Source of the DNA: Onthophagus taurus
Taxonomy: Eukaryota; Arthropoda; Insecta; Coleoptera; Scarabaeidae
Reading direction: 5' to 3'
NCBI RefSeq assembly: GCF_036711975.1
Contig: NC_091966.1
Location: 42,787,501-42,851,500, forward strand
DNA length: 64,000 bases
Numbering within the stretch: the first letter of the stretch is position 1; each line of letters opens with the position of its first letter. Positions 2,099-56,715 of the stretch are shown piece after piece. Below the pieces are notes generated by a model, which saw only the letters and a list, made by a program, of their open reading frames with translations, was not told where the DNA came from and did no database searches. The position numbers and the translations under genes are program-made.

Positions 2099-2187
2099 GA
2101 CTTACTTATTTATCGTTTATATTTACAACAAATTTATCTTGTTTTATTATCGAACCAATTTTAATATTAAACGATAATTTTTAAAGG

Positions 2188-3716: not shown

Positions 3717-4113
3717 GTGAGTTAAATTAAATTTAATTTTATTATTTTTATATAGTTTTTAATATGAGAAATATGAATGGCTCATCGTTTCAAACTGTAC
3801 AAAATAAGATTTCGAGGAGTGCCACAGAAACTACACAACATGACCAACTAACCACAATTTAAAATCTGACGTTAACGTGTCAAACACTTTTGACTGACAA
3901 ATAATTTAGAAAACCTAATAAATTATAAATAATTTAACTACTCAATTTAAAAACTTTATACCAACAAATACGTCGAAAAGTTGTATCGCCGCAAATATTT
4001 TGCAAATTTTATAAATCCTTCACCAACAAAAACAAAAATTTTACTTCATCATCAAAAAAACTAATAAAGGTTTCAAAAGAAAAACAAAACTTTTCCAAAT
4101 TCAAAATTTTGAT
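3717..4113 (+). other. 5' end of the 6.85-kb SND1 intron
   Basis: The intron runs 3717-10569. This first stretch is AT-rich and shows no recognisable repeat or open frame. The remainder of the intron is filled by the transposons and satellite listed separately. Confidence 0.6.
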
Positions 4114-10000: not shown

Positions 10001-10200
10001 CCTTAATTTCAATAAATACGGTTTCCAGGAATTTTTGAATTAGCATCTTTTTTGACACTTACATTAGAAAATAGGGGGATTGCATATTTTACTAAAAGTT
10101 GATTCCGAAGGCCTGTACTGAGTGTATTTTGATAGCGTTTTAATTCTGTCTGATTCTGCTACAAAATTTCAAAATGTTTGACGTCTTGGGACACAAAGGG
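7066..10200. mobile_element. PiggyBac-like non-autonomous element containing a satellite, left end lost
   Basis: The right end reads GGGACACAAAGGG followed by TTAA (10201-10204). It matches the complete copy at 50033-52285, which has TTAA on both sides. The insertion splits a gypsy RNase H, and gypsy coding resumes at the TTAA. The expected left end CCCTTTGTGTCCC is missing where gypsy sequence gives way near 7066-7090, so the left end was deleted. Nearly all of the interior is the 190-bp tandem repeat. The subterminal 130 bp on the right also match the other copy. Confidence 0.75.
7095..10065. repeat. 190-bp satellite array, about 15.6 copies
   Basis: The landmark CATCATTTTAAAGAGAAAGC recurs exactly every 190 bp at 7291, 7481, 7671, 7861, 8051, 8241, 8431, 8621, 8811, 9001, 9191, 9381, 9571, 9761 and 9951 (a few bases vary). 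Each unit also holds CGGCTTCCAGGAATTTTTAAA and TAGGTTATACGAAAATGTAAG. Spacing shows almost no indels, while point differences occur in recurring combinations, which suggests homogenisation. The same unit forms a second array at 50080-51880. Confidence 0.97.
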
Positions 10201-10569: not shown

Positions 10570-11271
10570 AATCCTGAAAGGAGTGTAAACTACGAAGAAG
10601 TTGTAGTAACGGAAGTAACACCCGAAGGAACATTCTTCGCCCAACATTATCAAAATGGATCAAAAGCTGAGCTTTTAGTCGCAAAGATGCGTCAAGAATT
10701 CCAAGCGAATCCACCTTTACCGGGAGCTTACAACCCAAAACGCGGCGATACTTGCGCTGCGAAATACACCGTTGATGATGAATGGTATCGAGCGAAAGTG
10801 GAAAAAGTTCAAGGTACAACCGTCCATATTCGTTATATCGATTATGGTAATCGAGAAACTGTGAATTCAACCCGCTTGGCAAGTTTACCCGCCGCTTATG
10901 CGAATGAAAAACCATTCGCAAACGAGTACAGTCTCGCTTGCGTTGCGTTACCGAAAGATCCAGAGTTTGCGGATATCGCCTTGAAATATTTAAAAGAAGA
11001 TCTTAGTGCGGGAAAATTGTTTTTAAATGTTGAATATCGCCCAAGTGGTGGGTTACCGGCTGCTACCGTTTTCACCGAAGAAAATAAGGAAGATATCGTA
11101 AAGAATTTGATTACAGATGGTTTGTTGTTGGTTGAAAAAAGACGGGAAAGGAGATTGCATAAATTGGTATCGGAGTATATGGCCGCCCAAGAAGTGGCTA
11201 AAACTAATCATGCAAATATTTGGCAGTATGGGGATATAACTGAAGATGATGCGAAAGAGTTTGGAGTTTAA
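10570..11271 (+). CDS. SND1: Tudor-SN / SND1, last exon (Tudor and SN5)
   Basis: The acceptor AG at 10568-10569 joins in phase 0 to the exon ending at 3716. The exon gives 233 residues and stops with TAA at 11269-11271. After a linker, the Tudor core is about residues 55-110 of this exon (KRGDTCAAKYTVDDEWYRAK, then HIRYIDYGNRE with the aromatic-cage YxDYGN motif that binds dimethyl-arginine). The split SN5 half follows (LLLVEKRRERRLHKLVSEYM, then AQEVAKTNHANIWQYGD). The C-terminus is EFGV, like the EFG end of animal SND1. Together with the first exon this gives about 742 residues of a protein that is about 900 long in animals. Confidence 0.96.
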   Translation, partial: NPERSVNYEEVVVTEVTPEGTFFAQHYQNGSKAELLVAKMRQEFQANPPLPGAYNPKRGDTCAAKYTVDDEWYRAKVEKVQGTTVHIRYIDYGNRETVNSTRLASLPAAYANEKPFANEYSLACVALPKDPEFADIALKYLKEDLSAGKLFLNVEYRPSGGLPAATVFTEENKEDIVKNLITDGLLLVEKRRERRLHKLVSEYMAAQEVAKTNHANIWQYGDITEDDAKEFGV

Positions 11272-17986: not shown

Positions 17987-18308
17987 AATTACAATGAAAG
18001 TTTTAAAAATATTTTGAGGTTAACCGCCTGTCAACAAATTTTAAACGTTGCTGTCAAATTAAAATTTTTATTTTTAACTTAATTATTTTGAATTAAAATA
18101 AATTAAACATCATAATTACTGTTTTATTATAAATTAACAATAATAAATTAATTTCGCGTTACAATTAAAATTTCAAACTCAAAATTCGTTACTAACTTCA
18201 CGTTGACAAAAAGAGTCGGTTAAAAACCAAGATTGAAATAGTTTTTCCATACAAGATTTGATATTTTCGAATATAAACAGGTCTTTTTTTGAATGAAAAG
18301 TGAAAAAC
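17987..18308. promoter_or_regulatory. Divergent intergenic region (candidate bidirectional promoter)
   Basis: The 322 bp separate the ATG codons of WDR77 (- strand) and the RhoGEF gene (+ strand), so both 5' UTRs and promoters must overlap here unless non-coding 5' exons lie elsewhere. It is AT-rich with no clear TATA box or CpG cluster. Its right-hand 60 bp are also present in the decayed copy at 25790-25868. Confidence 0.5.
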
Positions 18309-19022
18309 ATGTTACCGTCACAAAAGGCTGTTATAAAACCGTGTTTCGTATCGTTGAATAAAGATTTGGTTGATGACCATATAAAAACAGTCCAAAAAAA
18401 CTCAATAAAGAAAAAATGTGTCGTATTTCTCGATAAAGACTCGATTATTGAGACAAATAGAGCACAATCAACTCCTCACGAAAGACATTCAATCATTAAA
18501 AATTGTGCATTAATGAAGTCTGCAAGCATAGAAAGAAATACCCCCGGGAGAAGGAATGTTTATCCAATTTCGGAACCATCAACCCCTTTGTATGAACCAG
18601 CATTATCAAGCGAATTAAGACGAGCAATTGATGAAAAGAATTTATTTACTACAAAAACAAAAAATAAGTTTATGTCAGCTCTTGGAGAGTTAGAAGAAGC
18701 CAATGAAGAAGAGAACAGAAAAAGATACAAAAAGAAAGCGATTAATGAAGTTTTAGCTAGTGAAAAGGCTTATATTAAACAATTAGAGTTAATATTTAAT
18801 TTTTTTGAGAAGCCAATACGAGAAAAGGGGTTATTATCAAGAACTAATTTTGAACTGATATTTGGAGGATTAAACAGCATTTATAAATTAAACAAGGAAT
18901 TAATGCAAATGTTGGAGTTGAATAAATTGGATGTAGGATCAGCTTTTTTAAAAATTGCTCCATTTTTTAAACTTTATTCGACATATGCTTACGAATTTAA
19001 GGATATTTTAGAAGTTATTGAG
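18309..19022 (+). CDS. Rho guanine-nucleotide exchange factor, exon 1 (N-terminal tail and first half of DH)
   Basis: Exon 1 encodes 238 residues. A basic, Ser/Thr-rich tail (about 1-115; several SP/TP sites such as STPHER and SEPSTPLYEP) is followed by the start of a Dbl-homology domain (KKAINEVLASEKAYIKQLEL, then LIFGGLNSIYKLNKELMQML). DH domains swap GDP for GTP on Rho-family GTPases at membranes. The exon ends in phase 0 at donor GTAAAT (19023). I start at ATG 18309, not the in-frame GTG at 18300, and a decayed copy at 25869 begins at the equivalent ATG. The compact DH-PH layout resembles ARHGEF39-type proteins, but the exact orthologue is uncertain. Confidence 0.9.
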
Positions 19023-19064
19023 GTAAATTGAACCAAAAAATGATTAAATTAAATTATTCTTATA

Positions 19065-19610: not shown

Positions 19611-19954
19611 TCAGTTTTATTTTTTTTTCTACTTTATAAGATAACTTTCAAAATTCGCTATAAAATTAGTTTCTTGAAGGATCTTTGTGGAAATAACACC
19701 AATTTAGTTCTTGAGAAATAAATTTTTGAAATAATCGACAATTTTTTAAAATTTTGCAATTTATCGCCGATTAAGTTTTAAAAATTCGTAAAAAAATCCA
19801 TTTCTTGGCATATGACTGTGAACATTTCCTAAAGTGTTAATAAAAGCGTCCTCTTTCCAATGAACCAGCCCGTTTTGATAAATAACTTTTAGTTTTTGAG
19901 AAAACAATATTTGAAGTTTTGATATAATTTTCGATGTTGCAATTTTCATGTTGT
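19611..19954. other. Unassigned RhoGEF intron segment
   Basis: AT-rich intronic DNA between the LINE remnant and the minisatellite. I recognise nothing in it. Confidence 0.5.
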
Positions 19955-21522
19955 ATCCAGTTTTCTTTAAGTAGCATCTAGTCGTCTACCAGCAATATCA
20001 AGTCTTTTACAAGCAGTTGAAGTCTTCTGCAAGTAGCATCTAGTTTTTAAGCAGTATCTAGTATTTTTAAAGCAGTATCTCATTGTCTACCATCAGTATA
20101 GTGTCTTCTGTCAACAGTATCTAGCCTTCAAGCAGTAGCTAATCTTCTTGAAGTAATATCTAGTTTACTACCAGCTGTATTTCGTCTTCTATCAGCATTG
20201 TAAAGTGTTCTACAAGCAATATCAAATCTTTTACCATCAGTATCTAGAATTCAAGCAGTATCCAATCTTCTTTAAGTAGTATCTAGTCGTCTACCAGTAA
20301 TATCAAGTCTTCTGCAAGCAGTATGTAATCTTCAAGCAGTACCTAGTCTTCTTCAAACAGCATTCAGTTTTCTTTAAGTAGCATCTAGTCGTCTACCAGC
20401 AATATGAAGTCTTTTACAAGCAGTTGAAGTCTTTTGTAAATAGTATCTAGTTTTTAAGCAGTATCTAGTCTTTTTAAAGCAGTATCTCCTTGTCTACCAT
20501 CAGTATAGTATCTTATGTCAACAGTATTTAGCCTTCAAGCAGTAGCTAATCTTCTTGAAGTAATATCAAGTCTTTTACCAGCAGTATTTAGAATTCAAGC
20601 AGTATCCAATCTTCTTTAAGTAGTATCTAGTCGTCTACCAGTAATATCAAGTCTTCTGCCAGCAGTATCTAATCTTTGAGCAGTATCTAGTCTTCTTCAA
20701 ACAGCATTCAGTTTTCTTTAAGTAGCATCTAGTCGTCTACCAGCAATATCAAGTCTTTTACAAGCAGTTGAAGTCTTCTGCAAATAGTATCTAGTTTTTT
20801 AGCAGTATCTAGTCTTTTTAAAGCAGTATCTCCTTGTCTACCATCAGTATAGTATCTTATGTCAACAGTATTTAGCTTTCAAGCAGTAGCTAATCTTCTT
20901 GAAGTAATATCAAGTCTTTTATCAGCAGTATTTAGAATTCAAGCAGTATCCAATCTTCTTTAAGTAGTATCTAGTCGTCTACCAGTAATATCAAGTCTTC
21001 TGCCAGCAGTATCTAATCTTCAAGCAGTATCTAGTCTTCTTCAAACAGCATTCAGTTTTCTTTAAGTAGCATCTAGTCGTCTACCAGCAATATCAAGTCT
21101 TTTACAAGCAGTTGAAGTCTTCTGCAAGTAGTATCTAGTTTTTAAGCAGTATCTAGTATTTTTAAAGCAGTATCTCATTGTCTACCATCAGTATAGTGTC
21201 TTATGCCAACAGTATCTAGCCTTCAAGCAGTAGCTAATCTTCTTGAAGTAATATCTAGTTTACTACCAGCTGTATTTGGTCTTCTATCAGCATTGTAAAG
21301 TGTTCTACAAGCAATATCAAATCTTTTACCATCAGTATCTAGAATTCAAGCAGTATCCAATCTTCTTTAAGTAGTATCTAGTCGTCTACCAGTAATATCA
21401 AGTCTTCTGCCAGCAGTATCTAATCTTCAAACAGTATCTAGTCTTCTTCAAACAGCATTCAGTTTTCTTTAAGTAGCATCTAGTCGTCTACCAGCAATAT
21501 CAAGTCTTTTACAAGCATTGAA

Positions 21523-21708
21523 TTCCCTTTTGGCGGTAAATACTAGTTAATTGATTTAATGCGTTTTTGTGAAATTTTCAATACATGTTTTTTAATTCGT
21601 AGCGAACAACCTGAAGACGATTATAGAATAATCGAAATCGGTCGTTGAGAACAAAATTTTTAAATAAAATTTAATCTTCAGAAATACATTCTGTATTATT
21701 TTCACCGA
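21523..21708 (+). mobile_element. Non-satellite insert with a hammerhead-ribozyme-like fold
   Basis: This 186-bp insert interrupts the minisatellite. At 21607-21647 it can fold like a minimal hammerhead: CAAC (21607) pairs with GTTG (21644) as stem I. CTGAAGA (21611-21617) is followed, after one extra C, by stem II GATTAT/ATAATC (21619-21633), then GAAA (21634) and a GTC triplet (21641) next to stem I. Stem III is almost absent, as in Penelope-type hammerheads. The insert could be the 3' end of a retroelement. Confidence 0.4.
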
Positions 21709-22959
21709 TTTTACAAGCAGTTAAAGTCTTCTGCAAGTAGTATCTAGTTTTTAAGCAGTATCTAGTCTTTTGAAAGCAGTATCTCCTTGTCTACCATCAG
21801 TATAGTGTCTTATGTCAACAGTATTTAGCCTTCAAGCCGGAGCTAATCTTCTTGAAGTAATACCAAGTCTTTTACCAGCAGTATCTAGAATTCAAGCAGT
21901 ATCCAATCGTCTTTAAGTAGTATCTAATCGTCTACCAGCAATATCAAGTCTTCTGTCAGCAGTATCTAATCTTCAAGCAGTATCTAGTCTTCTTCAAACA
22001 GCATCCAGTTTTCTTTAAGTAGCATCTAGTCGTCTACCAGCAATATAAAGTCTTTTACAAGCAGTTGAAGTCTTCTGCAAGTAGTATCTAGTTTTTAAAC
22101 AGTATCTACTCTTTAAAGCAGTATTTCCTTGTCTACTGTCAATATAGTGTCTTTTGTCAACAGTATCTAGCCTTAAAAGCAGTAGCTAATCTTCTTGAAG
22201 TAATATCTAGTTTACTACCAGCTGTATTTAGTCTTGTATCAGCATTGTAAAGTCTTCTACAAGCAATATCGAGTCTTCTACCAGCAGTATCTAGAATTCA
22301 AGCAGTATCCAATCTTCTTTAAGTAGTATATAGTCGTCTACCAGTAATATCAAGTCTTCTGCCAGCAGTATCTAATCTTCAAGCAGTATCTAGTCTTCTT
22401 CAAACAGCATCCACTTTTCTTTAAGTAGCATCTAGTCGTCTACCAGCAATATCAAGTCTTTTACAAGCAGTTGAAGTCTTCTGCAAGTAGTATCTAGTTT
22501 TTAAGCAGTATCTAGTCGTTTTAAAGCAGTATCTCCTTGTCTATCATCAGTATAGTGTCTTCTGTCAACAGTATCTAGCCTTCAAGCTGTAGCTAATCTT
22601 CTTGAAGTAATATCTAGTTTACTATTAGCTGTATTTGGTCTTCTATCAGCATTGTAAAGTCTTCTACAAGCAATATCAAGTCTTCTACCAGCAGTATCTA
22701 GTCTTCAAGTAGTATCCAGTCTTCTTTAAGTAACATCTAGTCGTTTACCAGCAATATCACGTCATTTGCTGTATTAAGTCTTTTGCAAGCAGTATGTAAT
22801 TTTCTAGTATCTCGTCTTTTTTAAGCAGTATCTCATTTTCTACCAGCAGTATAGTGTCTTCCAGCAGTATCTAGTCTTCTAACAGTAGTATCAAGTATTC
22901 TGCACGCAACATCAAGCCTGCAAGCAGTATTTAGTTTTCTTGAAGCAGTATCTCGTCTT

Positions 22960-23170
22960 TTACCCGTTTGGGCGTCTAAACCCGTGCGTCTGAGGACGCT
23001 TTCTAGACCTAGAACTAGGAACATTCAAGCTTAGCCGCACGTCTCTCAAGACGGCTAAACCCAAACGATTCTAGTTCTAGGTCTTGTGTTAGTTTTAGTG
23101 ATAGTGCCAGTGTAAAACTAGAACTAACACTAGACCTAGAACTAGAAACATTCGGGTTTAGCCGTGTGTC
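22960..23170. repeat. Palindromic CTAGTTCTAG units inside the minisatellite
   Basis: Two adjacent hairpin units with the core AGCCGCACGTCTCTCAAGAC flanked by arms such as CTAGACCTAGAACTAG and CTAGTTCTAGGTC. They belong to the family of the 131-bp array at 38110-39960. Confidence 0.8.
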
Positions 23171-24309
23171 TGAAGGTGCACCAGTATTAAGTCTGCTTCA
23201 AAGTCTGCTAGTTTTGTGTTAGCAGTATCTAGTCCTCTAATAGTAGTACCAACTCTTGCACATAGTATCTAGTCTTTTATTAGCAGTCTATACTCTTCAT
23301 CAAGCAGTAGCTAATCTTCTTGCAGTAAGATCTAGTTTACTACCAGCAGTATTTGATCTTCTATCAGCATTGTAAAGTCTTCTACAAGCAATTTCAAGTC
23401 TTCTGCCAGCAGTATCTAGAATTCAAGCAGTATCCAATCTTCTTTAAGTAGTATCTAGTCGTCTACCAGCAATATTTGATCTTCTATCAGCATTGTAAAG
23501 TCTTCTACAAGCAATATCAAGTCTTCTGTCACCAGTATCTAATTTTCAAGCTGTATCTAGTATTCTTCAAACAGCATCCAGTTTTCTTTAAGTAGCATCT
23601 AGTCGTCTACCAGCAATATCAAGTCATTTGCAAGCAGTTGAAGCCTTCTGCAAGTAGTATCTAGTTTTTAAGCAGTATTTAGTCTTTTTAAAGCAGTATC
23701 TCCTTGTGTACCATCAGTATAGTGTCTTCTGTCAACAGTATCTAGTCTTCAAGCAGTATCCAGTCTTCTTTAAGTAACATCTAGTCGTTTACCAACAATA
23801 TCAAGTCATTTGCAAACTGTATTAAGTCTTTTGCAAGCAGTATGCAATTTTCAAGTAGTATCTTATCTTTTTCAAGCAGTATCTCATTTTCTACCAGCAG
23901 TATAGTGTCTTCAAGCAGTATCTAGTCTTCTAACAGTAGCATCAAGTATTCTGCACGCAATATCATGCCTGCAAGCAGTATTTAGTCTTCTTGAAGCAGT
24001 ATCTAGTGTTCTTGAAGCAGTATCTACTTGTCTGCCAGCAGTATAGTGTCTTCTGTTATTAGTATCTAGTCTTCAAGCAGTATCCAGTCTGCTTTAAGTA
24101 ACATCTAGTCGTCTACCAGCAATATTACGGCATTTGCAAGCTGTATTAAGTCTTCTTCAAGCAGTATCTAGTTTTTAAGCAGTATCTCACTTTCTACCAG
24201 CAGTATAATGTCTTCTTCAAGCAGTATCTAGTCTTCTAACACTAGTATCAAGTATTCTGCACGCAATATCAAGCCTGCAAGCAGTATTTAGTCTTCTTGA
24301 AGCAGTATC

Positions 24310-24490
24310 TCGTCTTTTACCCGTTTGGGCGTCTAAATCCGTGCGTCTGAGGACGCTTTCTAGACCGAGAACTGGAAACATTCGAGTTTAGCCGCACGTC
24401 TCTCAAGACGGCTAAACCCGAATTAGCTCTATTAGTTCTAGGTTCTGTGTTAGTTCTAGGTCTAGTGTTAGTTCTAATTTTAGCACAATA
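24310..24490. repeat. Palindromic unit at the right edge of the minisatellite
   Basis: Same hairpin family (core GTTTAGCCGCACGTCTCTC, then AAGACGGCTAAAC). It continues into TTTTAGCACAATAAAAATAT and ATATCTTATGCTAACTA, a flank also found beside the copy at 47400-47680, so the mobile unit may be longer than the hairpin. Confidence 0.75.
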
Positions 24491-24562: not shown

Positions 24563-25603
24563 AAAAGTGAAGAAAATAATTACGAATTTTACAAATTCAT
24601 TGAAAACCAAGAATCTCGCCCGGAAGTTCAATCAAAACTCTCTGCATTATTAATAACCCCAATTCAAAGAGTTCCACGTTATTGTCTCCTATTAAAACAA
24701 ATTTTAGACCACAGCAAACCAAACGAAGACGATTACGATGATATTAAACAATCTTTAAAGGAAGTTGAAAAATCCGCGAAACATATCGATACATTGGTCG
24801 AGCAAAAAGAGAACAGTATTCGCTTAGTTGAAATTCAAACGGCGTTAATCGATCATAAACCGATTATAATAAAACCGGGTCGATTTCTTATCCACGAAGG
24901 TCCCGTTTTAAAAATAGTAGCTTCTAGTGTTTGTCCTATTTATTTAATTTTATTAAACGATATTATTTTATTTTGTAAAACTAAAAAGAAAACGGTTAAA
25001 ACGAAAAATTGTTTGAAATGTGAGATGATTTATCCGTTGGCGTCGTGTAAAATTGTCGAAAAAGTTATTTCGAGAAATATTCATATCAGCTGTGAAAACG
25101 AAAATGTGATGATTTTTATTGAAAAACCTAAAGAATTTACCAAGTGGATCACCACTTTAAAAGATGCTCAAACGAAAGCGGTACTGAATAGGATGACTTT
25201 AAGGAAAGAAAGTTCTTTGAGAAAACCCGCTCATTACAAAAATTTGAATCAGTATAACGAAGTTGATTTAAGTCCTTGCGTACCGCAAAGAAAACGATTA
25301 TTAAATGAAACGTTTTATAAATTTGATGAAGAGTACTCAGAGAGTCCATCTAAGAAGTTTTGCTCATCAAAAAAAGATAGCTTATTTCCGTTAAGATCGC
25401 ATTTATTATCTAGGAATCCAATCGGTCATAAACGAAGTCAATCAGTATCAAACTCAATTATTAAAGATTCAGTCAAAGTTGAAGATCCGGATGTTTACGT
25501 TTTTGGAGAACCATCCAATGTTAACCGGGGATTTAACTTTAGCATTACAAACTTTTTCAGTAACATTGGTAACTCTTTAAAGCGTTTATTTAGGTATAAA
25601 TAA
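24563..25603 (+). CDS. Rho guanine-nucleotide exchange factor, exon 2 (second half of DH, PH domain, C-tail)
   Basis: The acceptor AG at 24561-24562 joins in phase 0 to 19022, giving 346 residues (584 in total). The conserved DH helix LLITPIQRVPRYCLLLKQIL at about residues 29-48 is the Rho-contacting CR3 segment. A pleckstrin-homology domain follows (about 95-195: GRFLIHEGPVLKI, LILLNDIILFCKTKKK, FIEKPKEFTKWITTLKDAQ). The C-tail of about 150 residues is basic and Ser-rich, with an amphipathic basic end (SNIGNSLKRLFRYK) that could bind membranes. The stop TAA is at 25601-25603. The 5.5-kb intron before it holds the minisatellite. Confidence 0.93.
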   Translation, partial: KSEENNYEFYKFIENQESRPEVQSKLSALLITPIQRVPRYCLLLKQILDHSKPNEDDYDDIKQSLKEVEKSAKHIDTLVEQKENSIRLVEIQTALIDHKPIIIKPGRFLIHEGPVLKIVASSVCPIYLILLNDIILFCKTKKKTVKTKNCLKCEMIYPLASCKIVEKVISRNIHISCENENVMIFIEKPKEFTKWITTLKDAQTKAVLNRMTLRKESSLRKPAHYKNLNQYNEVDLSPCVPQRKRLLNETFYKFDEEYSESPSKKFCSSKKDSLFPLRSHLLSRNPIGHKRSQSVSNSIIKDSVKVEDPDVYVFGEPSNVNRGFNFSITNFFSNIGNSLKRLFRYK

Positions 25604-31333: not shown

Positions 31334-31749
31334 TACAACTCCTACATAAGTGTAAAAAAGGTTTGAAAATGAATTTCCTTGAAATGTTCGAAATCGATAA
31401 ACTTAAGCATAATGATAACTATCTTACTTTAAATGATCAACTAGAAAACTATTATAAACCATTATACGCCTTTTTGAAAAAATAATTTCATTTTAAAATT
31501 ATTTTACTCTGATATTTTTATTCCTTTTTGTAAGCGGTTTGAAATTTAGTTCGATGTTGATTTAACAGTCGTCTTTGGAGTTCAATTGTGTACTATTCTT
31601 GTTTAGAATAGTTATTTTCCTGTTTCTTTTAAATAATGTTTTATTTTAACGTAGAAATTTGTTTGTTCAGCGTGATGTTTTAACTATTTGACTGTAAGTT
31701 GAGATATATTTATGCAATTTTATTGTTTTTTATATATCCTTTTGTAGAT

Positions 31750-31795
31750 TTGGCTGATGATGACATCATAATATGTCGAAACTAGGTAGTACCAA
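31750..31795 (+). ncRNA. Hammerhead-ribozyme-like motif in the PLE 3' region
   Basis: TTGG (31750-31753) can pair with CCAA (31792-31795) as stem I. CTGATGA (31754-31760) is followed, after one extra T, by stem II GACAT/ATGTC (31762-31777) and GAAA (31778-31781). A very short CTA/TAG stem III and a GTA triplet precede the stem I partner. PLEs are known to carry minimal hammerheads with tiny stem III. The extra base before stem II departs from the strict consensus, so activity is uncertain. Confidence 0.45.
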
Positions 31796-32010
31796 GTACA
31801 TAAACTTAATTAATAAAAAACTTTAGAGGTCAAGAGGCCTACTTATTATTACTTCATTTCAACATATTCAGTTCTAGTTTTACACTTGCACTTTAGGAAT
31901 AAGTTTTAATCCAAATTGGCTGAAATAATAACAATATAAGTAGCATTATTAAATTGGTTAAGACAACTTAATTAATTAATAAAAAAACTTTAAATTAATT
32001 TGTTACAAAT

Positions 32011-32016
32011 TTTATT
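32011..32016 (-). terminator. Poly(A) signal for the PIGM cluster
   Basis: TTTATT here reads AATAAA on the - strand, 34 nt after the PIGM stop. No AATAAA was seen in the junctions between the four upstream reading frames, which fits one shared transcript. Confidence 0.55.
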
Positions 32017-32049
32017 GAAATCAACAACATCAAACCTAAACTATTTTTG

Positions 32050-33270
32050 CTACGGTTTATAACAAGATATAATTCTACCTAAAACTCCGATATTAGCGGA
32101 GAAAAACGCAACACTTTGAATCCAAATAAAAATAAACGTGTTTTTCCCTTGAAACTCCAAAAGATAAGCCGGATATAACCAAGCCAATTGAGCCACGATC
32201 CAAATTAAAACCAACACGATCGACGTGAATTTATTAATTTTAATTTGCCACAAACACAACGGCAAAATCACCATTAACCACATAAAATATTGCGATGTAA
32301 GAACCGTGTTGTAAGTAATCATAACAAAAGTGATTGAAAACAACGAAAAACACAAAGAGGATTTATTTAAGCCATAACGAATCGATAAAACGGTTATTAA
32401 TAAATATTGTGGCAAAACGGTAAGAATTCTTTGCCAAATATTGACGATTTTTAAATCGGCCGATAAATATTGGAGATAAAAATATAAAGAGAAGTTGTGG
32501 CGGGTGTCTTTTCGAATGAAATGATAAATGTAGGTTTCATATAAAAATTGGTACCCATAAAGGAAATAAAAGAAAGTTGTTAATGAAATTAATGCGAGTA
32601 AAGTTCCAAAAATTAATTTTAACTGTTTAAAATTAGGAATTAAGTATTTAATATAAACAATTTTAGTCAGTTTTAAATTAGTTTTCGAATTTTGATTCAT
32701 AAAATAAGCAAGGCTATACATTAAGGGGTACAAACGAAAATGAATAACAAAGCCATGAATTAATCCGGCTAAAAATTGTGAGTCACATTGCAACAAATAA
32801 ATTGTTAATAAAACGAAAATTGATGAAATTGCATCGCAATTACCTCGCGTTGATATTATAAAAACAGAGGGGTTATACAACCAAAAAAATGAACTAATTT
32901 TCGCTTTAACCTCTAAATCATTTTTATCATGATTAACCAAACTATTTAATTTAACAATTTTATAAATTAAATACCCTGCGATTACATCAAACAAAGAAAA
33001 GAACCATTTCCCAAACGATTGATGAATCAAAACATTAGGAACCATCAAAAAAGCCAAAATTGGGCTATACCGATAAGTATCCCTTTTATACGGAGAATCC
33101 CCTTCGATTACACATCGAGCCCCATCCGAAAAAACTTTATAATCAACATCCGTATAAGAAACTTTAAAATAATCATCATGAAAATCCCCATAAATTATTA
33201 AAACCCCCCTCAAAATAAACCCAATAATTAAATGACCCCAAATCTCTAATCCAACGAATTTCTTAAACAT
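32050..33270 (-). CDS. PIGM: GPI mannosyltransferase 1 (PIG-M)
   Basis: PIG-M (family GT50) adds the first mannose, from dolichol-phosphate-mannose, to the GPI anchor in the ER lumen. The 406-residue single-exon frame has about ten hydrophobic segments. The DxD motif is Asp41-Val-Asp43 (SYTDVDYKVFSDGA) in the first lumenal loop, as in the family, followed by the invariant SPYKRDTYRYSPILA. LYNPSVFIISTRGNCDAISS is another family signature. Length fits animal PIG-M (about 400-425). The ATG lies 2 nt after the stop of the NDUFAF8 frame, so there is no room for its own promoter in the gap. It is the last gene of a four-frame cluster. Confidence 0.96.
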   Translation of the reverse strand: MFKKFVGLEIWGHLIIGFILRGVLIIYGDFHDDYFKVSYTDVDYKVFSDGARCVIEGDSPYKRDTYRYSPILAFLMVPNVLIHQSFGKWFFSLFDVIAGYLIYKIVKLNSLVNHDKNDLEVKAKISSFFWLYNPSVFIISTRGNCDAISSIFVLLTIYLLQCDSQFLAGLIHGFVIHFRLYPLMYSLAYFMNQNSKTNLKLTKIVYIKYLIPNFKQLKLIFGTLLALISLTTFFYFLYGYQFLYETYIYHFIRKDTRHNFSLYFYLQYLSADLKIVNIWQRILTVLPQYLLITVLSIRYGLNKSSLCFSLFSITFVMITYNTVLTSQYFMWLMVILPLCLWQIKINKFTSIVLVLIWIVAQLAWLYPAYLLEFQGKNTFIFIWIQSVAFFSANIGVLGRIISCYKP

Positions 33271-33272
33271 TT

Positions 33273-33470
33273 TTAAATCTTCGTTTTCAATTTACCAGCA
33301 CTCTTTTGTAAACAATTCTTAAACAGTTTAAATTCATTCGCGCAATCGTTCATTTCAATCGAACTTTTCTTTAAAACGCACTTTGCGTAATTTCCCGCTT
33401 CCGTTTTACAACCGGCCAATATAAAAGGATATTGACGAAATCGGTGACGTGCTTTTTGAACGGACTCCAT
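33273..33470 (-). CDS. NDUFAF8: NDUFAF8 (complex I assembly factor, twin CX9C)
   Basis: NDUFAF8 (human C17orf89) is a small mitochondrial protein that works with NDUFAF5 in assembly of respiratory complex I. The 65-residue frame has two CX9C motifs: Cys21-Cys31 (CKTEAGNYAKC) and Cys43-Cys53 (CANEFKLFKNC). It shares the family's N-terminal basic R-x-R-x-x-P region. Twin CX9C proteins enter the intermembrane space by the MIA40 route. ATG 33470 directly abuts the stop of the upstream 64-residue frame (0 nt), and its own stop is 2 nt from PIGM. Confidence 0.88.
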   Translation of the reverse strand: MESVQKARHRFRQYPFILAGCKTEAGNYAKCVLKKSSIEMNDCANEFKLFKNCLQKSAGKLKTKI

Positions 33471-33665
33471 TTAATCCCTAAAACGAGATTTATGCGTCGC
33501 AAGTAACTCCTCTAAACTGGGGCGTTCCTCCTTACTGATGAAAAAGTCGTAAATCGGGCGCGAAAATAACACGGATAATGCGCAAGTTGTTAATATTCCG
33601 ATAAATAATCTCGGGTTACGTTGTGACCACTTTAAACTCTTTTTTTGTTGCCTGTAATAATTCAT
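33471..33665 (-). CDS. Unnamed 64-residue single-pass membrane protein
   Basis: I do not recognise this protein. The basic N-terminus (MNYYRQQKKSLKWSQRNPR) is followed by one hydrophobic segment at about 20-43 (LFIGILTTCALSVLFSRPIY) and a charged tail (EERPSLEELLATHKSRF). The layout fits a tail-exposed inner-membrane or ER microprotein. Neighbouring CMC4 and NDUFAF8 are mitochondrial, which makes mitochondria the better guess. Its ATG overlaps the CMC4 stop (ATGA at 33665-33662) and its TAA is followed at once by the NDUFAF8 ATG. The tight packing argues that the frame is real. Confidence 0.75.
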   Translation of the reverse strand: MNYYRQQKKSLKWSQRNPRLFIGILTTCALSVLFSRPIYDFFISKEERPSLEELLATHKSRFRD

Positions 33666-33905
33666 TCCGGCTTTTTCTTGTCGGAATTAACTTTGAAACC
33701 TTCGCAAACGAAACTTCGGTCACCCCAACGGCGACAACAATCTATCATATCTTGAATTACGTCTTTACAAGAATCTTCTTTATAATTGCGATCTAAACGA
33801 ATTTATTTTAATTATTTTGAGGTTATGTTATTATATTGAATAATTACCGTTTAAACAATCTTGTATTTTACAAGCGTAAGCTTTACAAGGATCTTTCTTT
33901 TTCAT
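33662..33905 (-). CDS. CMC4: CMC4 (Cx9C motif-containing protein 4), two exons
   Basis: CMC4 is a small twin-CX9C helical-hairpin protein of mitochondria, in vertebrates made from the MTCP1 locus. Exons are 33905-33848 and 33792-33662, with a 55-nt intron (donor GTAATT, acceptor TTTAG), giving 62 residues (human 68). It starts MKKKDPCKAYACKIQDC. CX9C pairs are Cys7-Cys17 and Cys28-Cys38, followed by the family's second CC and a VCEGF block. Too short and split to show as one long frame. The stop TGA shares bases with the ATG of the next frame (ATGA). It is the first gene of the cluster. Confidence 0.92.
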
Positions 33906-34037
33906 GAATTTAAACTAAAAATACTTTAAATGTGATGTAACGTGTTATGAAAAAGGTTAAATTATTACAAATTAGAATAGAACCTCTATTATAAAATCAT
34001 CTGTCAAAAGAACGTCAAAAATTAAATTTTAGTTTAT
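33906..34037. promoter_or_regulatory. Upstream region of the CMC4-PIGM cluster
   Basis: 132 bp between the CMC4 ATG and the duplicated vimar 5' flank. This should contain the promoter and 5' UTR of the whole - strand cluster. The adjoining sequence (34038-34267) copies the vimar upstream flank, suggesting the cluster and vimar once shared a short divergent promoter region. Confidence 0.45.
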
Positions 34038-34470
34038 TTTAAAAATTAATATTTTATTGATTCGATTTATTATTAAACGATTAATTAAGCTAAAAATTAA
34101 ATTGATTCGATTTTTTTAAAAGAAATATATATTTTTTTTTAAATAAACCGGTTGTATTGATTACACTATTTAGGGATTTTTTTTATTAACAAATCTGTCA
34201 GATTTCAAAGTTTCGAATAAAAAAAATCCCGATACAAATTTTAATTTATTAATGAAACATTAAATAATTGAAATTATGTACGAAATGATTGATATCGAAA
34301 CTTCCCCGGTTGTTTCTAAATTAATGGGAAGATTTAGAATGTTACTTAATAGACAAGGTGATTATTTTTTTAGGTTATAAAGTGAAATTCCCCTAACTCG
34401 AAACGCTAAGGGAGCGGGAGAAAACTAAACTAATCTAACACTGAATCCTTACTAAATAATAATTAAAACT
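34038..34470 (+). pseudogene. Chimeric partial duplicate of vimar: 5' flank fused to exon 4 fragment and intron
   Basis: 34038-34267 aligns with 39961-40190 upstream of vimar (AAATTAATATTTTATTGATT, ATTAACAAATCTGTCAGATT). It then switches at once to 34268-34360, which aligns with vimar exon 4 (GAAATTATGTACGAAATGAT, GACAAGGTGATTAT). 34370-34430 matches the following intron, including the pogo-like end (AGTGAAATTCCCCTAACTCG, AGGGAGCGG). About 8.9 kb between these points in vimar is missing here. Several codon changes and no reading context show it is not functional. Confidence 0.88.
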
Positions 34471-34660
34471 AGAACTAACACTATACCTACAACTACCTAG
34501 AATCTTTTAATTCTAGGTATTGTGTTAGTTCTAGTTTTACACTTATACTGTCACTAGAAATAACATTAGATTTAGGACTAGAATCATTTGGGTTTAGTCG
34601 TCTTTAGAGACATGCAGCTAAACCTAAATGTTTCTAGTTCTAGGTATAGTTTTACTTCTG
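34470..34660. repeat. Palindromic CTAGTTCTAG units
   Basis: One and a half hairpin units follow the vimar fragment. A related unit follows exon 4 in the true gene (49315-49440), so the first of these may have been co-duplicated. Confidence 0.75.
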
Positions 34661-36400
34661 GTAACTTCCCTTAGCCACGTAACTTCTGAATAAACCATAC
34701 AATCTAGCAATAGTTGGCACTTTTCGTAAAAATAAGTCAGAAATACAATATCTGGGCATCACACTTGACAATAAAATGACATGGAGAGCCCACCTAGATA
34801 ATAGAGTAAAAAAAGCGTACGTTGCATTCGGTCAATGCCGGAGGGCTATAGGTAAGACATGGGGTTTGTCACCCAGAAATGCCCTCTGGATTTACACGGC
34901 TGTAATCCGACCTATGCTTACTTATGGTGCAGTAGTATGGTGGTCAAAGACCCTACAGTCTACATCCACTACTGCACTTAATAAAGTACAGAGACTTGCG
35001 TGTTTGTATGTTACAGGTGCGCTGATCCAACTTGGTAGGTAAGACTTTTACAATTTATACTGACAGTAGACAAGCTATTTTAGCCCTGAGTAGAATAACA
35101 ATTACCTCAGGACTTGTTATGGGTTGTCATCTGACATTGGAGAAGGCCGCAGTGCATAACTGTGTCATACTTCAATGGATAAAAGGACACTCGACTTGTT
35201 CAGGTAACAAGCACGCTGATAGGCTTGCCAAAAGGGCTGCCAAGCGAGCGCCATGTTCGCCTGAACCGATAATCGCTCCGTCCTTATCAACTCAGATTGA
35301 GATAATTAAAGATTTTACCCACAAAAAGTTCATGAACTGGTGGGATAGGGTTAAGGGTTGCCATCTGTCTAAGGAAGTATTACATTATCCTTCAGCAGAG
35401 GCAGCCTTGTCTTTCGTAAGGCTTGGTAGAAACGCTCTACGAACTGTAACGGGACTCGTCACGGGTCACTGTAAGGTAAACAAGCATCTTTATAACCTCA
35501 AGCTTGCTATTAGTCCTCTCTGTCGCCTCTGTAAAGAGAGCGAGGAGACGGTCCGACACATCTTGTGTGAATGCCCCACTCTGCAAGACCTCAGAATGAG
35601 AGACTTCGGAGAGGAATGGCCGACCACAGATGGCATCAGGAACACACCTCTGAGCTGTATCCTAGCCTTCGGAAATTCCTTAGGCTGGTTGATGTAGCCG
35701 GAGACAGTGTAGGAGGATGTACAAGGGGCCCGTTGGGGCCTAGGTGCTGTGTGCGTAGCATACCCTCCGCTTTCCTACATACATACATACAAGTCAGAAA
35801 TACTTATGGAATTACAAGACCATAAATCCCGGAAATGTGGAACTTCTGTCCTTGCATTTGATGATAAAATGACTCTTGTGTCTTATAAACCTAAACAAAA
35901 TAAAATAGTTCGTTAACTTTCGACAATGCATTAAACAGACTGTATAAATTAACAAACAAACAAACCGGATATAATCCACACCTATAATGCGACAAAAGGA
36001 GCTGTTGATTCTTTTGACCAAATGGTGCAGAGAATGTGCGTCAATAGAAAGACCAGGAGATGGCCTCTTTGTTTTTTCTACAATATGCTCAACATTGCAG
36101 TAGTGAATTCCTATGTCATATATAACCATAATGGAATAAAAAGAGGACAGACACCATTATCAAGGCAAGAATTTGTTCTTAAACTTCAAGAACAACTCAC
36201 CAGACTATGGCAACAAGAAAAGTTACAAAATTGCCCCTCCTAGTAAAGAAAATTGAAAGACTCTCTATGTCCAGTTTTACAAGATCAGCCTATTAATTGC
36301 AGAGAATCAGGAAGTCCTACAGTGAAGAGGAGAATGACGACCACAATTTGTTAAGTATGCCATCATGCGTTGTGTCTTAAACATCACATAAAAATATGTA
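34661..36400 (+). pseudogene. PiggyBac-type transposase pseudogene, split by a LINE
   Basis: Pieces in order: GTFRKNKSEIP around the LINE target site, then after 35804 MELQDHKSRK, LAFDDKMTLVSYKPKQNKIV with stops, then 35995-36220 TKGAVDSFDQMVQRMCVNRK, RRWPLCFFYNMLNIAVVNSY. 36290-36360 holds a degraded Cys-rich tail. These are the DDE-domain end and C-terminus of piggyBac transposases (TKGGVDxxD, RxTRRWPxxxFxNMLDIAxxNA). Stops and frameshifts make it dead. It is a different piggyBac lineage from the satellite-bearing one, judging by the tail. Confidence 0.85.
34747..35790 (+). mobile_element. 5'-truncated LINE with RNase H, 13-bp target duplication
   Basis: Direct repeats AAGTCAGAAATAC at 34734-34746 and 35791-35803 bracket the insert. 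34750-35030 encodes the RT thumb (LGITLDNKMTWRAHL, WIYTAVIRPMLTYGAVVWW). 35040-35250 encodes RNase H (FTIYTDSRQAILAL, ILQWIKGHSTCSGNKHADRL). 35510-35600 gives a CCHC-like end, CRLCKESEETVRHILCECP. The 3' end is a TACA microsatellite. The RT and RNase H frames are joined out of frame near 35035 after an internal deletion. RNase H after RT suggests the I/R1/LOA group. It landed inside the piggyBac pseudogene. Confidence 0.92.
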
Positions 36401-38109: not shown

Positions 38110-39960
38110 AATGATTCTAGTTTTAGGTCAAGTATTAATTCTAGTGGCAGTTCTAAGTAGCGCTAGTTATTGGTACTAGATAACCATAGGTTGTATATTG
38201 TTATTGAATTAAAACTACAACTAACACTAGACCTAGAACTAGAAAGTATCGGGTTTAGCCGTGCGTCTGAAGAATGTTTCTAGTTCTAGGTCTAGTGTTA
38301 GTTCTAGTTTTACACTAACACTGTTACTATGTAGAACTAACACTATACCAAGAACTAGAACCATTCGGGTTTAGCCGTCTTTAGAGACGTGCGGCTAAAC
38401 CCGAATGTTTCTAGTTCTAGTGATACTTCTAGTGACAGTTCTAAGTAACGCTAGTTAGCACTAGATAGTCCTAGGTTGTGTATTGTTATTAAACTAAAAC
38501 TAGAACTAACACTATACCTAGAACTAAAATCATTCGGGTTTAGCCGTCTTTAGAGACGTGCGGCTAAACCCAAATGTTTCTAGTTCTAGGTCTAGTGTTA
38601 GTTCTAGTTTTACACTAGCACTCTTATTATGCAGAACTAACACTATACCTAGAACTAGAATCATTTGGGTTTAGCCGTCTTTAGAGACGTGCGGCTAAAC
38701 CCAAATGTTTCTAGTTCTAGGTCTAGTGTTAGTTCTAGTTTTACACTAGCACTCTTACTATGCAGAACTAACACTATATCTAGAACTAGAATCATTTGGG
38801 TTTAGCCGTCTTTAGAGACGTGCGGCTAAACCCAAATGTTTCTAGTTCTAGGTCTAGTGTTAGTTCTAGTTTTACACTAGCACTCTTACTATGCAGAACT
38901 AACACTATACCTAGAACTAGAATCATTTGGGTTTAGCCGTCTTTAGAGACGTGCGGCTAAACCCAAATGTTTCTAGTTCTAGGTATAGTGTTAGTTCTAG
39001 TTTTACACTTGCACTGTTACTATGTAGAACGAACACTATACCTAGAACTAGAATCATTTGGGTTTAGTCGTCTTTAGAGACGTGCTGCTAAACCCAAATG
39101 TTTCTAGTTCTAGGTATAGTGTTAGTTCTAGTTTTACACTTGCACTGTTACTATGTAGAACGAACACTATACCTAGAACTAGAATCATTTGGGTTTAGTC
39201 GTCTTCAGAGATATGCAGCTAAACCCAAATGTTTGTAGTTCTAGGTCTAGTGTTAGTTCTAGTTTTACACTAGCACTCTTACTATGCAGAACTAACACTA
39301 TACCTAGAACTAGAATCATTTGGGTTTAGCCGTCTTTAGAGACGTGCGGCTAAACCCAAATGTTTCTAGTTCTAGGTATAGTGTTAGTTCTAGTTTTACA
39401 CTTGCACTGTTACTATGTAGAACGAACACTATACCTAGAACTAGAATCATTTGGGTTTAGTCGACTTCAGAGACGTGCAGCTAAACCTAAATGTTTCTAG
39501 TTCTAAGTATAGTTTTAATTCTGGTTTTACACTAGCACTGTTACTATTGAGAACTAACACTATACCTAGAACTAGAATCATTCTGGTTTAGCCGTCTTTA
39601 GAGACGTGCGGCTAAACCGGAATGTTTCTAGTTCTAGGTCTAGTGTTAGTTCTAGTGACAGTTTTAAGTAACGCTAATTAGCACTGAATAGTCCTAGGTT
39701 GTGTATTGTTATTGAACTAAAACTAGAAGTAACACTAGACCTACAACTAGAAAGTTTCGCGTTTAGCTGGCTTTAGAGATGTGCGGCTAAGCCCAAATGT
39801 TTCTAGTTCTAAGTATAATGTTAGTTCTAGTTTTATACTTACACTCTCACTACTTAGAACTAACATGAAGATATAGAACTAGAAATGTTGGAATTATTCT
39901 AGTTATATTATTATCTAAATCTAGTGTTAGTTCTAATGACAGTTATATTACAGTATAATT
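38110..39960. repeat. Tandem array of 131-bp palindromic units
   Basis: About eleven hairpins. In the regular part, TCATTTGGGTTTAGCCGTC recurs at 38661, 38792, 38923, 39054, 39185 and 39315 (131 bp, one 130). Each unit is a palindrome of about 105 bp: CTAGAACTAACACTATACCT and its inverse on the outside, GGGTTTAGCCGTC and its inverse on the inside, a 6-7 nt turn, then a linker of about 25 bp (TTTTACACTTGCACTGTTAC). Arms of the same unit change together in several copies (for example TTCGGG/CCCGAA versus TTTGGG/CCCAAA), so pairing is conserved. Single copies occur at about nine other places in the window. Confidence 0.93.
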
Positions 39961-50079: not shown

Positions 50080-51880
50080 TCATTTTAAAAAGCATTGAGC
50101 TTTAATTTAAAATAAGTCTCATTCCTTAATTTCAATAAACACGGCTTCCAGGAATTTTCAAATTAGCATCTTTTTTGACACTTTTAGGTTATACGAAAAT
50201 GCAAGTTTTGTTTAAACTTTTTTTTTCTTCATATTTTTCCGATCCAACCCAACAATTATTATACATCATTTTAAAGAGAAAGCTTTGAGCTTTAATTTAG
50301 AATAAGTTTTATTCCTTAATTTCAATAAATACGGCTTCCAGGAATTTTTAAATTAGCATATTATTTTGACAATTTTAGGTTATACGAAAATGTAAGTTTT
50401 GCTTCAACATTTTTTTTCTTAATATTTTCCCAATCCAACCCAACAATTATTATACATCATTTTAAAGAGAAAGCTTTGAGCTTTAATTTAGAATAAGTTT
50501 CATTCCTTACTTTCAATAAATACGGTTTCCAGGAATTTTTAAATTAGCATCGTTTTTGACACTTTTAGGTTATACGAAAATGTAGGTTTTATTTCAACAT
50601 TTTTTTTCTCAATATTTTTCCAATCGAACCCAACAATTACTATATATCATTTTAAAGAGAAAGCTTTGAGCTTTAATTTAGAATAAATTTCATTCCTTAA
50701 TTTCAATAAACACAGCTTCCAGGAATTTTTAAATTAGCATCTTTTTTGACGTTTTTAGGTTATACCAAAATGTAAGTTTAATTTCAACATTTTTTGTCTA
50801 CACATTTTTCGGATCCAACATAACCATTATTATACATCATTTTAAAGAGAAAGCATTAAGCTTTAATTTAGAATAAGTCTCATTCCTTAATTTCAATAAA
50901 TACGGCTTCCAGGAATTTATAAATTAGCATATATTTTGACAATTTTACGTTATACGAAAATGTAAGTTTTGTTTAAACATTTTTTTTCTTGATATTTTTC
51001 CGATCCAACCCAACAATTATTATACATCATTTTAAACATAAAGCTTTGAGCTTTAATTTAGAATAAGTTCCATTTCTTAATTTCAATAAATACGGCTTCC
51101 AGGAATTTTTGAATTAGCATATATTTTGACAATTTTAGGTTATACGAAAATGTAAGTTTTGTTTCAACATTTTTTTTCATGATATTTTCCCAATCCAACC
51201 CAACAATTATTATACATCATTTTAAAGAGAAAGCTTTGAGCTTTAATTTGGAATAAGTTCCATTCCTTAATTTCAATAAATACGGCTTCCAGGAATTTTT
51301 AAATTAACATATATTTTGACAATTTTAGGTTATACGAAAATGTAAGTTTTGTTTCCACATTTTTTTTCTCAATATTTTTCCAATCGAACCCAACAATTAT
51401 TATATATCATTTTAAAGAGAAAGCTTTGAGCTTTAATTTAGAATAAATTTCATTCCTTAATTTCAATAAATACAGCTTCCAGGAATTTTTAAATTAGCAT
51501 CTTTTTTGACATTTTTAGGTTATACCAAAATGTAAGTTTAATTTCTACATTTTTTTCTACACATTTTTGTGATCCAACATAACCATTATTATACATCATT
51601 TTAAAGAGAAAGCATTGAGCTTTAATTTAGAATAAGTCTCATTCCTTAATTTCAATAAATACGGCATCCAGGAATTTTTAAATTAGCATCTTTTTTAACA
51701 TTTTTAGGTTACACAAAAATGTTAGTGTTAACTTAATACTCAACCCAACGATTATTATACATCGATTTAAACAGAAAACTTTAAGCTTCAGTTTAAAATA
51801 AGTTTCATTTCTTAATTTCAATAAACACGGCTTCCAGGAATTTTTGAATTAGCATCTTTTTTGACACTTAGATTGATAAG
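50080..51880. repeat. 190-bp satellite array, about 9.5 copies
   Basis: Same monomer as 7095-10065 (TACATCATTTTAAAGAGAAAGC at about 190-bp steps: 50264, 50455 and onward). Variants such as ACACATTTTTCGGATCCAAC appear in two units, about four units apart, hinting at a higher-order block. Copies are more diverged than in the SND1 intron. Confidence 0.95.
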
Positions 51881-54244: not shown

Positions 54245-56715
54245 ATCTTTCTTTATTTAGCTTGTCAGCAGTAGCTAGTCTTCAGAAAGCAGTATTTAGT
54301 CTCCACAAAGCAATTTTAGTTTTTAGAAAGCAGTATTTAGTGTTCCAGACGCTGTATTTAGACCTGTCGGCAGTATCTAGTCTTCAGAAAGCAGTATTTA
54401 GTCTTTTAGAAGCAGTATCTAGTCTTCTGCCAAAGTTATGTATGTTTTCTCCAAAATATTTTATCTTTCTTCTGCAGTACTTAGACCTGTTAGCAGTATC
54501 TAGTCTGCAGAAAGCAGTATTTAGTGTGAAGACGCTGTATTTAGACCTGTCGGAAGTATCTAGTCTTCAGAAAGCAGTATTTAGTCTTCTAGAAGCACTA
54601 TCTAGTCTTCTGCCAACGTTATGTATGTTTTCTCCAACAATATCTTATCTTTCGTTTGCAGTACTTAGACCTGTCAGCAGTATCTAGTCTTCAGAAAGCA
54701 GTATTTAGTCTCCACAAAGCAATTTTAGTTTTTAGAAAGCAGTATTTAGTGTTCCCGACGCTGTATTTAGACCTGTCGGCAGTATCTAGTCTTCAGAAAG
54801 CAGTATTTAGTCTTGTAGAAGCAGTATCTAGTCTTCTGCCAACGTTATGTATGTTTTCTCCAACAATATCTTATCTTTCTTCTGCAGTACTTAGACCTGT
54901 TAGCAGTATCTAGTCTTCAGAAAACAGTATATTTAGTCTTTTAGAAGCAGTATCTAGTCTTCTGCCAACGTTATGTATGTTTTCTCCAACAATATCTTAT
55001 CTTTCGTTTGCAGTACTTAGACCTGTCAGCAGTATCTAGTCTTCAGAAAGCAGTATTTAGTCTCCACAAAGCAATTTTAGTTTTTAGAAAGCAGTATTTA
55101 GTGTTCCCGACGCTGTATTTAGACCTGTCGGCAGTATCTAGTCTTCAGAAAGCAGCATTTAGTCTTTTAGAAGCAGTATCTAGTCTTCTGCCAAAATTAT
55201 GTATGTTTTCTTCAAAATATTTTATCTTTCTTTTGCAGTATTTAGACCTGTTATCAGTATCTAGTCTGCAGAAAGCAGTATTTAGTGTTCCAGACGCTGT
55301 ATTTAGACCTGTCGGCAGTATCTAGTCTTCAGAAAGCAGTATTTAGTCTTGTAGAAGCAGTATCTAGTCTTCTGCCAACGTTATGTATGTTTTCTCCAAC
55401 AATATCTTATCTTTCTTCTGCAGTACTTAGACCTGTTAGCAGTATCTAGTCTTCAGAAAACAGTATTTAGTCTTTTAGAAGCAGTATCTAGTCTTCTGCC
55501 AACGTTATGTATGTTTTCTCCAACAATATCTTATCTTTCGTTTGCAGTACTTAGACCTGTCAGCAGTATCTAGTCTTCAGAAAGCAGTATTTAGTCTCCA
55601 CAAAGCAATTTTAGTTTTTAGAAAGCAGTATTTAGTGTTCCAGACGCTGTATTTAGACCTGTCGGCAGTATCTAGTCTTCAGAAAGCAGCATTTAGTCTT
55701 TTAGAAGCAGTATCTAGTCTTCTGTCAAAATTATGTATGTTTTCTTCAAAATATTTTATCTTTCTTTTGCAGTATTTAGACCTGTTATCAGTATCTAGTC
55801 TGCAGAAAGCAGTATTTAGTGTTCCAGACGCTGTATTTAGACCTGTCGGCAGTATCTAGTCTTCAGAAAGCAGTATTTAGTCTTGTAGAAGCAGTATCTA
55901 GTCTTCTGCCAACGTTATGTATGTTTTCTCCAACAATATCTTATCTTTCTTCTGCAGTACTTAGACCTGTTAGCAGTATCTAGTCTTCAGAAAACAGTAT
56001 TTAGTCTTTTAGAAGCAGTATCTAGTCTTCTGCCAACGTTATGTATGTTTTCTCCAACAATATCTTATCTTTCGTTGGCAGTACTTAGACCTGTCAGCAG
56101 TATCTAGTCTTCAGAAAGCAGTATTTAGTCTCCACAAAGCAATTTTAGTTTTTAGAAAGCAGTATTTAGTGTTCCCGACGCTGTATTTAGACCTGTCGGC
56201 AGTATCTAGTCTTCAGAAAGCAGTATTTAGTCTTTTAGAAGCAGTATCTAGTCTTCTGCCAAAGTTATGTATGTTTTCTCCAAAATATTTTATCTTTCTT
56301 TTGCAGTATTTAGACGTGTTAGCAGTATCTAGTCTGCAGAAAGCAGTATTTAGTGTTCCAGACGCTGTATTTAGACCTGTCGGCAGTATCTAGTCTTCAG
56401 AAAGCAGTATTTAGTCTTGTAGAAGCAGTATCTAGTCTTCTGCCAACGTTATGTATGTTTTCTCCAACAATATCTTATCTTTCTTTTGCAGTACTTAGAC
56501 CTGTCAACAGTATCTAGTCTTCAAAAAGCAGTATTTAGTCTCCACAAAACAATTTTAGTCTTTAGAAAGCAGTATTTAGTGTTCCAGATGCTGTATTTAG
56601 ACCTATCGGCAGTATCTAGTCTTCAGAAAGCAGTATTTAATCTTCCAGAGCAGTATCTAGTCTTCAGAAAGCAGTATTTAGTTTTTTAGAAGCAGTATCT
56701 AGTCTTCTGCCAACG
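54245..56715. repeat. Minisatellite with higher-order repeats in vimar intron 4
   Basis: Built from AGTATCTAGTCTTCAGAAAG-type units and a non-unit spacer (AACGTTATGTATGTTTTCTC). The block GCAGTACTTAGACCTGTCAG recurs at 54657, 55009, 55543 and 56077, periods about 352, 534 and 534 bp. The two 534-bp blocks are nearly identical, so the last expansion is recent. Long open frames here are by-products of the repeat. Confidence 0.93.

Follow-up and report, generated by a model that had tools for sequence, protein, structure and literature searches.

Four complete reading frames followed one another on the minus (-) strand of the analysed stretch of Onthophagus taurus DNA (64 kb, hereafter the window), from position 33905 down to 32050, and were assigned in that order to CMC4 (ORF1), a 64-residue microprotein (ORF2), a twin-CX9C protein resembling NDUFAF8 (ORF3) and PIGM. 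CMC4 consisted of exon 1 (33848..33905, start codon 33905-33903), delimited from the splice sites and the spliced translation, and exon 2 (33662..33792), separated by a 55-nt GT-AG intron (33793..33847; GTAATT...TTTAG) deduced from the reading frame. Its stop codon TGA (33664-33662) overlapped the ATG of the microprotein frame (33471..33665), which was followed by ORF3 (33273..33470) and PIGM (32050..33270), so that the junctions between successive frames were an ATGA overlap of 4 nt (-4), 0 nt and +2 nt. ORF2 and ORF3 lay in the same frame, with a single TAA between them. The preliminary description of this DNA had reported four minus-strand frames with a 4-nt overlap and gaps of 0 and 2 nt, and both its coordinates and its junctions were reproduced.

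The presumed leader and promoter region (33906..34037, minus strand) held a 3-codon upstream frame (34000-33989), one more start codon, at 34000, if it is transcribed. At the other end, an AATAAA (32011..32016, minus strand) lay 3' of all four frames. A single AATAAA had been credited to the unit; the copy at 32016-32011 was indeed the only one past all the frames, but motif counts on the minus strand from 33905 to 31900 gave four copies, the three others being located in the CMC4 intron (33807-33802) and inside PIGM (32367-32362 and 32235-32230). ATTAAA occurred six times in the same interval. The four frames may share this upstream region and this poly(A) site.

From their predicted products, three of the four frames are independently recognisable: CMC4, PIGM and, as a protein family, the third frame. 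The spliced translation of CMC4 (62 aa) matched Pfam family PF08991 (E 4e-17) and, in the PDB search, the solved CMC4 structure 1hp8 (E 6.4e-12), the matching chains bearing the names P8MTCP1 and CMC4. The predicted GPI mannosyltransferase 1, PIGM (406 aa), matched PF05007 (E 1.4e-75) and the solved GPI mannosyltransferase 1 (PDB 9wno, E 1.1e-74). Two long low-complexity insertions, at sites after residues 114 and 192 of the beetle PIGM studied here but both lacking from it, were present in at least 13 of 17 other PIGM proteins in the alignment. PIGM relatives were absent from viral_contigs and genome_contigs, and NDUFAF8 relatives from viral_contigs, as expected because these collections are viral and prokaryotic.

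The third frame was intronless and encoded 65 aa with the cysteine pairs C21-X9-C31 and C43-X9-C53. It had 17 protein-database matches (E <= 2.1e-18), the closest being an Onthophagus taurus protein named NDUFAF8 (P0001; 97% identity over 65 aa); the other beetles among them were Aquatica leii, Atheta (Dalotia) coriaria and Tenebrio molitor. In the alignment, all 17 had 61-66 residues and the same four cysteines, and 15 shared the start Met, the exceptions being P0008, with a later start, and P0016, one residue longer. ORF3 itself stayed below the curated Pfam cut-off (best match CX9C PF16860, 20.3 of 26.4 bits), none of the eight relatives scanned among the 17 reached a Pfam cut-off, and no chain named NDUFAF8 appeared among the 14 profile matches of the PDB search, all of them weak (best E 0.022). 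The putative identification of ORF3 as NDUFAF8 is based on the name of one record at 97% identity, together with the cysteine spacing.

The microprotein frame, described from its open reading frame, hydropathy and ATG count, encoded one hydrophobic stretch (residues 20-38; best 19-residue hydropathy 1.75, at residue 20) preceded by six net positive charges, and the product is likely to form a single membrane helix. Searches gave no Pfam family for it up to E 10, nothing in the PDB up to E 5, and no protein-database candidate with three common 5-residue words; we know of no convincing counterpart among the small human mitochondrial membrane proteins. The length of the frame was dropped as evidence, as chance gave an ATG frame of at least 64 residues on one strand in 544 of 2000 random 3-kb sequences.

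The surrounding sequence was rich in repeats. Copies of one repeat flanked the unit on both sides (31868-31887 and 34525-34544) and were also present at 29192, 23108 and 38298-39840; a 20-mer taken from it had 16 matches with <=3 mismatches in the window, compared to 0.02 expected, and belonged to a 131-bp tandem array (38502-39656). A 32-nt inverted repeat was found at 34464-34539, and the remains of a retroelement, matching RNase H and zf-RVT (35026-35697, + strand), lay near the 5' side of the unit. Elsewhere on the + strand, open stretches encoded staphylococcal-nuclease and Tudor domains (2178-3725 and 10570-11271) of a gene that is presumably Tudor-SN. Between them lay a 190-bp tandem array (7091-10060), and a similar 190-bp unit made up a second array 40 kb away (50089-51726). 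A RhoGEF domain was split into two halves (18297-19031 and 24563-25603, + strand) lying 5.5 kb from each other, and diverged arrays built on a 21-bp base period (approximately 19950-24316) occupied the space between them. Another array, made of units in this 21-bp style (54267-56707), contained 126-residue open frames in three repeated copies, perhaps due only to the longer unit being a multiple of three.

Linkage of NDUFAF8 and PIGM in other sequences was assessed through exact equality of the size of the longest contig recorded for each database match, using 16 sizes from the 17 NDUFAF8 matches and 118 sizes from 120 of the 547 PIGM matches above threshold; one of the 118 was that of the beetle unit itself. 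Among the PIGM matches listed, nine of the 16 NDUFAF8 contig sizes were shared. In the 1.9-6 kb class, seven of nine NDUFAF8 contig sizes recurred in the PIGM list (among the matches listed); when sizes were jittered by 1 to 200, 20000 trials averaged 0.19 recurrences and never gave more than 3. The sizes with no PIGM counterpart among the matches listed were 2307 and 1982 in this class and, outside it, four contigs of 978-1206, too short for PIGM, and a 48.4-Mb Tenebrio contig. Two of the nine shared contigs (Aquatica and Dalotia) were of chromosome size, which is evidence for the same chromosome only; in Aquatica leii, the locus tags of NDUFAF8 and PIGM were consecutive (RN001_015330 and RN001_015331). 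Equal sizes imply, without proving, one contig for NDUFAF8 and PIGM, and the seven short contigs may be RNA or DNA.

The Drosophila melanogaster gene CG9865 is one that we take to be the fly PIG-M. The wording of its published account is only putative mannosyl transferase, and its transcript FBtr0071680 carries three conserved upstream frames (Hayden & Bosco 2008, PMC2276209): uORF1 of 65 aa, uORF2 of 84 aa and uORF3 of 76 aa, with transcript suffixes 7, 5 and 4, Ka/Ks values of 0.12, 0.07 and 0.04, and negative selection on all of them. In the same account, uORF1 is called a putative p8MTCP1 homologue, uORFs 1 and 3 contain the twin CX9C motif, and the most distant species with an EST covering the upstream frame and the main frame are D. 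willistoni (uORF1), Aedes aegypti (uORF2) and Acyrthosiphon pisum (uORF3). If the names follow the order in the mRNA, the frames run uORF1, 2, 3. In the CG9865 unit, as in that of the beetle, the putative mannosyltransferase is thus preceded by a CMC4 homologue, a further frame and a frame with the twin CX9C motif, whereas the middle frame (84 versus 64 aa) and the twin-CX9C frame (76 versus 65 aa) differ in length. The name CG42497, considered for one of the fly frames, was dropped, as the literature places CG42497 beside Tim10.

The last pair of frames has a precedent of its own: for arthropods, Hayden & Jorgensen (2007, PMC2075485) report a group-8 CX9C uORF ahead of a putative mannosyl transferase. 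Like ORF3, this CHCH uORF has a twin CX9C motif and no intron and stands directly before the mannosyltransferase; with 11 residues between its CX9C pairs and 65 aa, ORF3 falls within the arthropod group-8 description (CX9C-X11-15-CX9C, 65-69 aa, intronless). An EST of Cicindela litorea, a beetle by taxonomy, appears in figures 12 and 13 of PMC2075485. The available text of that paper covers the last pair only, and the two upper beetle frames lie outside its account. The statement that the human CMC4 locus encodes a second protein proved to be in print (PMC2276209); there too, one transcript encodes CMC4 together with a second product, but the partner is p13MTCP1 and not PIGM. In Drosophila, the sloth1/sloth2 dicistronic mRNA (5 nt between frames), for which reporters support leaky scanning (PMC9681215), resembles the beetle unit in having small mitochondrial proteins on one mRNA and a weak first start, and differs in encoding two paralogous small proteins without a large enzyme frame. 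FlyBase counts comprise 159 dicistronic pairs, along with seven loci that are tricistronic and two that are tetracistronic, and how the lower frames of such mRNAs are translated is left open by that survey (Rule-Benders paper).

Because a fly unit of the same make-up was published in 2008, the beetle unit is not new and represents an ordinary further example. Among the matching titles listed from the open-licence literature, no report of such a unit in a scarab beetle was found, which is a weak negative. As the unit occurs in flies and in a dung beetle, the joining of at least its CMC4, twin-CX9C and PIGM parts probably predates the beetle/fly split. A single multi-protein transcription unit, as proposed at the outset, gained partial support, from the CG9865 precedent and from the contigs shared by NDUFAF8 and PIGM elsewhere; by analogy with these, all four frames are very probably carried on a single mRNA.

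Out-of-frame ATGs were depleted in the first three frames. Two were observed in ORF1-3 compared to 7.3 expected when synonymous codons were shuffled within each frame (P=0.0004; of 5000 trials, 0.04% gave two or fewer), and one of the two was the ORF2 start itself; the microprotein frame had none inside. Taken singly, ORF1, ORF2 and ORF3 gave weak signals (P = 0.03, 0.27 and 0.07, respectively). PIGM showed no depletion in the same permutation (17 compared to 16.7 expected). The ratio of observed to expected was 0.27 for ORF1-3 (2 over 7.31) and ranged from 0.63 to 1.07 in seven comparison exons (PIGM and six others from the window), and none of 866 overlapping 582-nt segments of these exons had two or fewer out-of-frame ATGs. 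One of them, the GEF_b exon, was also short of out-of-frame ATGs (8 compared to 12.7, P=0.014, permutation). A null based on sampling pooled codon usage gave 8.4 expected for ORF1-3 with P unchanged; since it also flagged two of the six other exons as depleted, the permutation null was preferred. The total number of AUGs ahead of the PIGM start, counted from that of CMC4, was dropped as evidence: the six present, CMC4, ORF2 and ORF3 starts included, were not unusual against the 866 segments (minimum 5, median 10; 184 with 7 or fewer). Depletion in the first three frames and not in PIGM is new here and, coming from one species and small counts, amounts to a hint.

The start codons differed in context, the base at -3 being U for CMC4, G for ORF2, U for ORF3 and A for PIGM, the only A of the four. 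Two internal in-frame AUGs before PIGM both had G at -3, and the remaining out-of-frame AUG before PIGM had C at -3 and opened a 16-codon frame. These features can be accommodated by one capped mRNA of approximately 2 kb, with the 55-nt intron removed, that would encode CMC4, the membrane microprotein, NDUFAF8 and PIGM. Some 40S subunits would bypass the weak CMC4 start, some would likewise pass the ORF2 start and the weak ORF3 start, and those remaining would initiate at the PIGM start. Leaky scanning is favoured because a scanning ribosome meets the out-of-frame AUGs inside ORF1-3 and a reinitiating one does not; the depletion is predicted by leaky scanning and not by reinitiation or internal entry. 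Reporter results in green algae also support leaky scanning, together with AUG depletion. On the other hand, the internal in-frame AUGs with G at -3 should halt many scanning subunits, which counts against this route. Judged from the AUG depletion and the start contexts, leaky scanning would be the main route with slightly better than even probability, and we consider it rather probable that the locus is a polycistronic nuclear gene comparable in kind to the CG9865 unit, with its lower frames translated mainly in this way.

Other routes to the lower frames were also considered. In termination-coupled reinitiation on one mRNA, a ribosome ending at a stop codon would shift a few bases and start at the abutting ATG, and the closeness of the three junctions is what such stop-start coupling would need. 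Against this route, classical reinitiation works poorly once a frame of about 60 codons has been translated and where there is no distance in which to reload initiator tRNA. In yeast, an 80S reinitiation route independent of cis-elements has been reported. Ribosomes translating ORF1-3 would never meet out-of-frame AUGs, so that their depletion is left without a reason, and reinitiation appears possible but doubtful. Internal ribosome entry ahead of NDUFAF8 or PIGM, a route that has been suggested as perhaps common in fly dicistronic mRNAs (Rule-Benders paper), would find no space between the cistrons for a non-coding element, and a search of 31600-34600 gave no Rfam match up to E 0.5, a result that excludes described elements only; it is the least probable of the readings considered. 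Trans-splicing of a leader, named in the preliminary description, was set aside on the sole ground of the Rule-Benders paper, according to which spliced-leader trans-splicing was first observed in trypanosomes and nematodes, while the trans-splicing described in the fly is of a different kind.

Two further alternatives concern what the locus produces. It could be shared by the four frames while PIGM or NDUFAF8 is also made from its own monocistronic mRNA, through an internal promoter or alternative splicing. Alternative monocistronic mRNAs were recorded at 114 of the 159 FlyBase dicistronic loci (69 for one gene, 45 for both), those for the 3' coding region usually arising from a downstream or external promoter. 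The FlyBase loci known as polycistronic only, however, have gaps of -34 to 319 nt, a range that spans all three beetle junctions and fits the unit without being decisive, and additional monocistronic mRNAs are considered unlikely. ORF2, for its part, may be a chance open frame, as its lack of relatives in the Pfam, PDB and protein-database searches would allow, or readthrough of the TAA may give an in-frame N-terminal extension of NDUFAF8, which is possible in principle because ORF2 and ORF3 share one frame and lie a TAA apart. Only 425 of 20000 random 192-nt intervals yielded a frame fitting between the neighbours (start at -20 to +30 nt relative to the CMC4 stop, end <=30 nt from the ORF3 start), and the fly unit of the same make-up has a conserved middle frame (PMC2276209), both of which speak against chance; the start Met shared by most NDUFAF8 matches speaks against readthrough. 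Either view of ORF2 is very improbable.

With leaky scanning retained as the favoured route, a fuller version can be put forward tentatively, at somewhat less than even probability: ribosomes would scan through three complete frames to reach a fourth, selection would have cleared the out-of-frame AUGs on the way, the arrangement would predate the fly/beetle split, and two intermembrane-space proteins, a membrane microprotein and a GPI enzyme would be made in ratios fixed by the graded starts. The fly-type unit is now extended to a dung beetle, and AUG clearance in upstream coding frames offers a testable sign of how animal cells translate lower frames.
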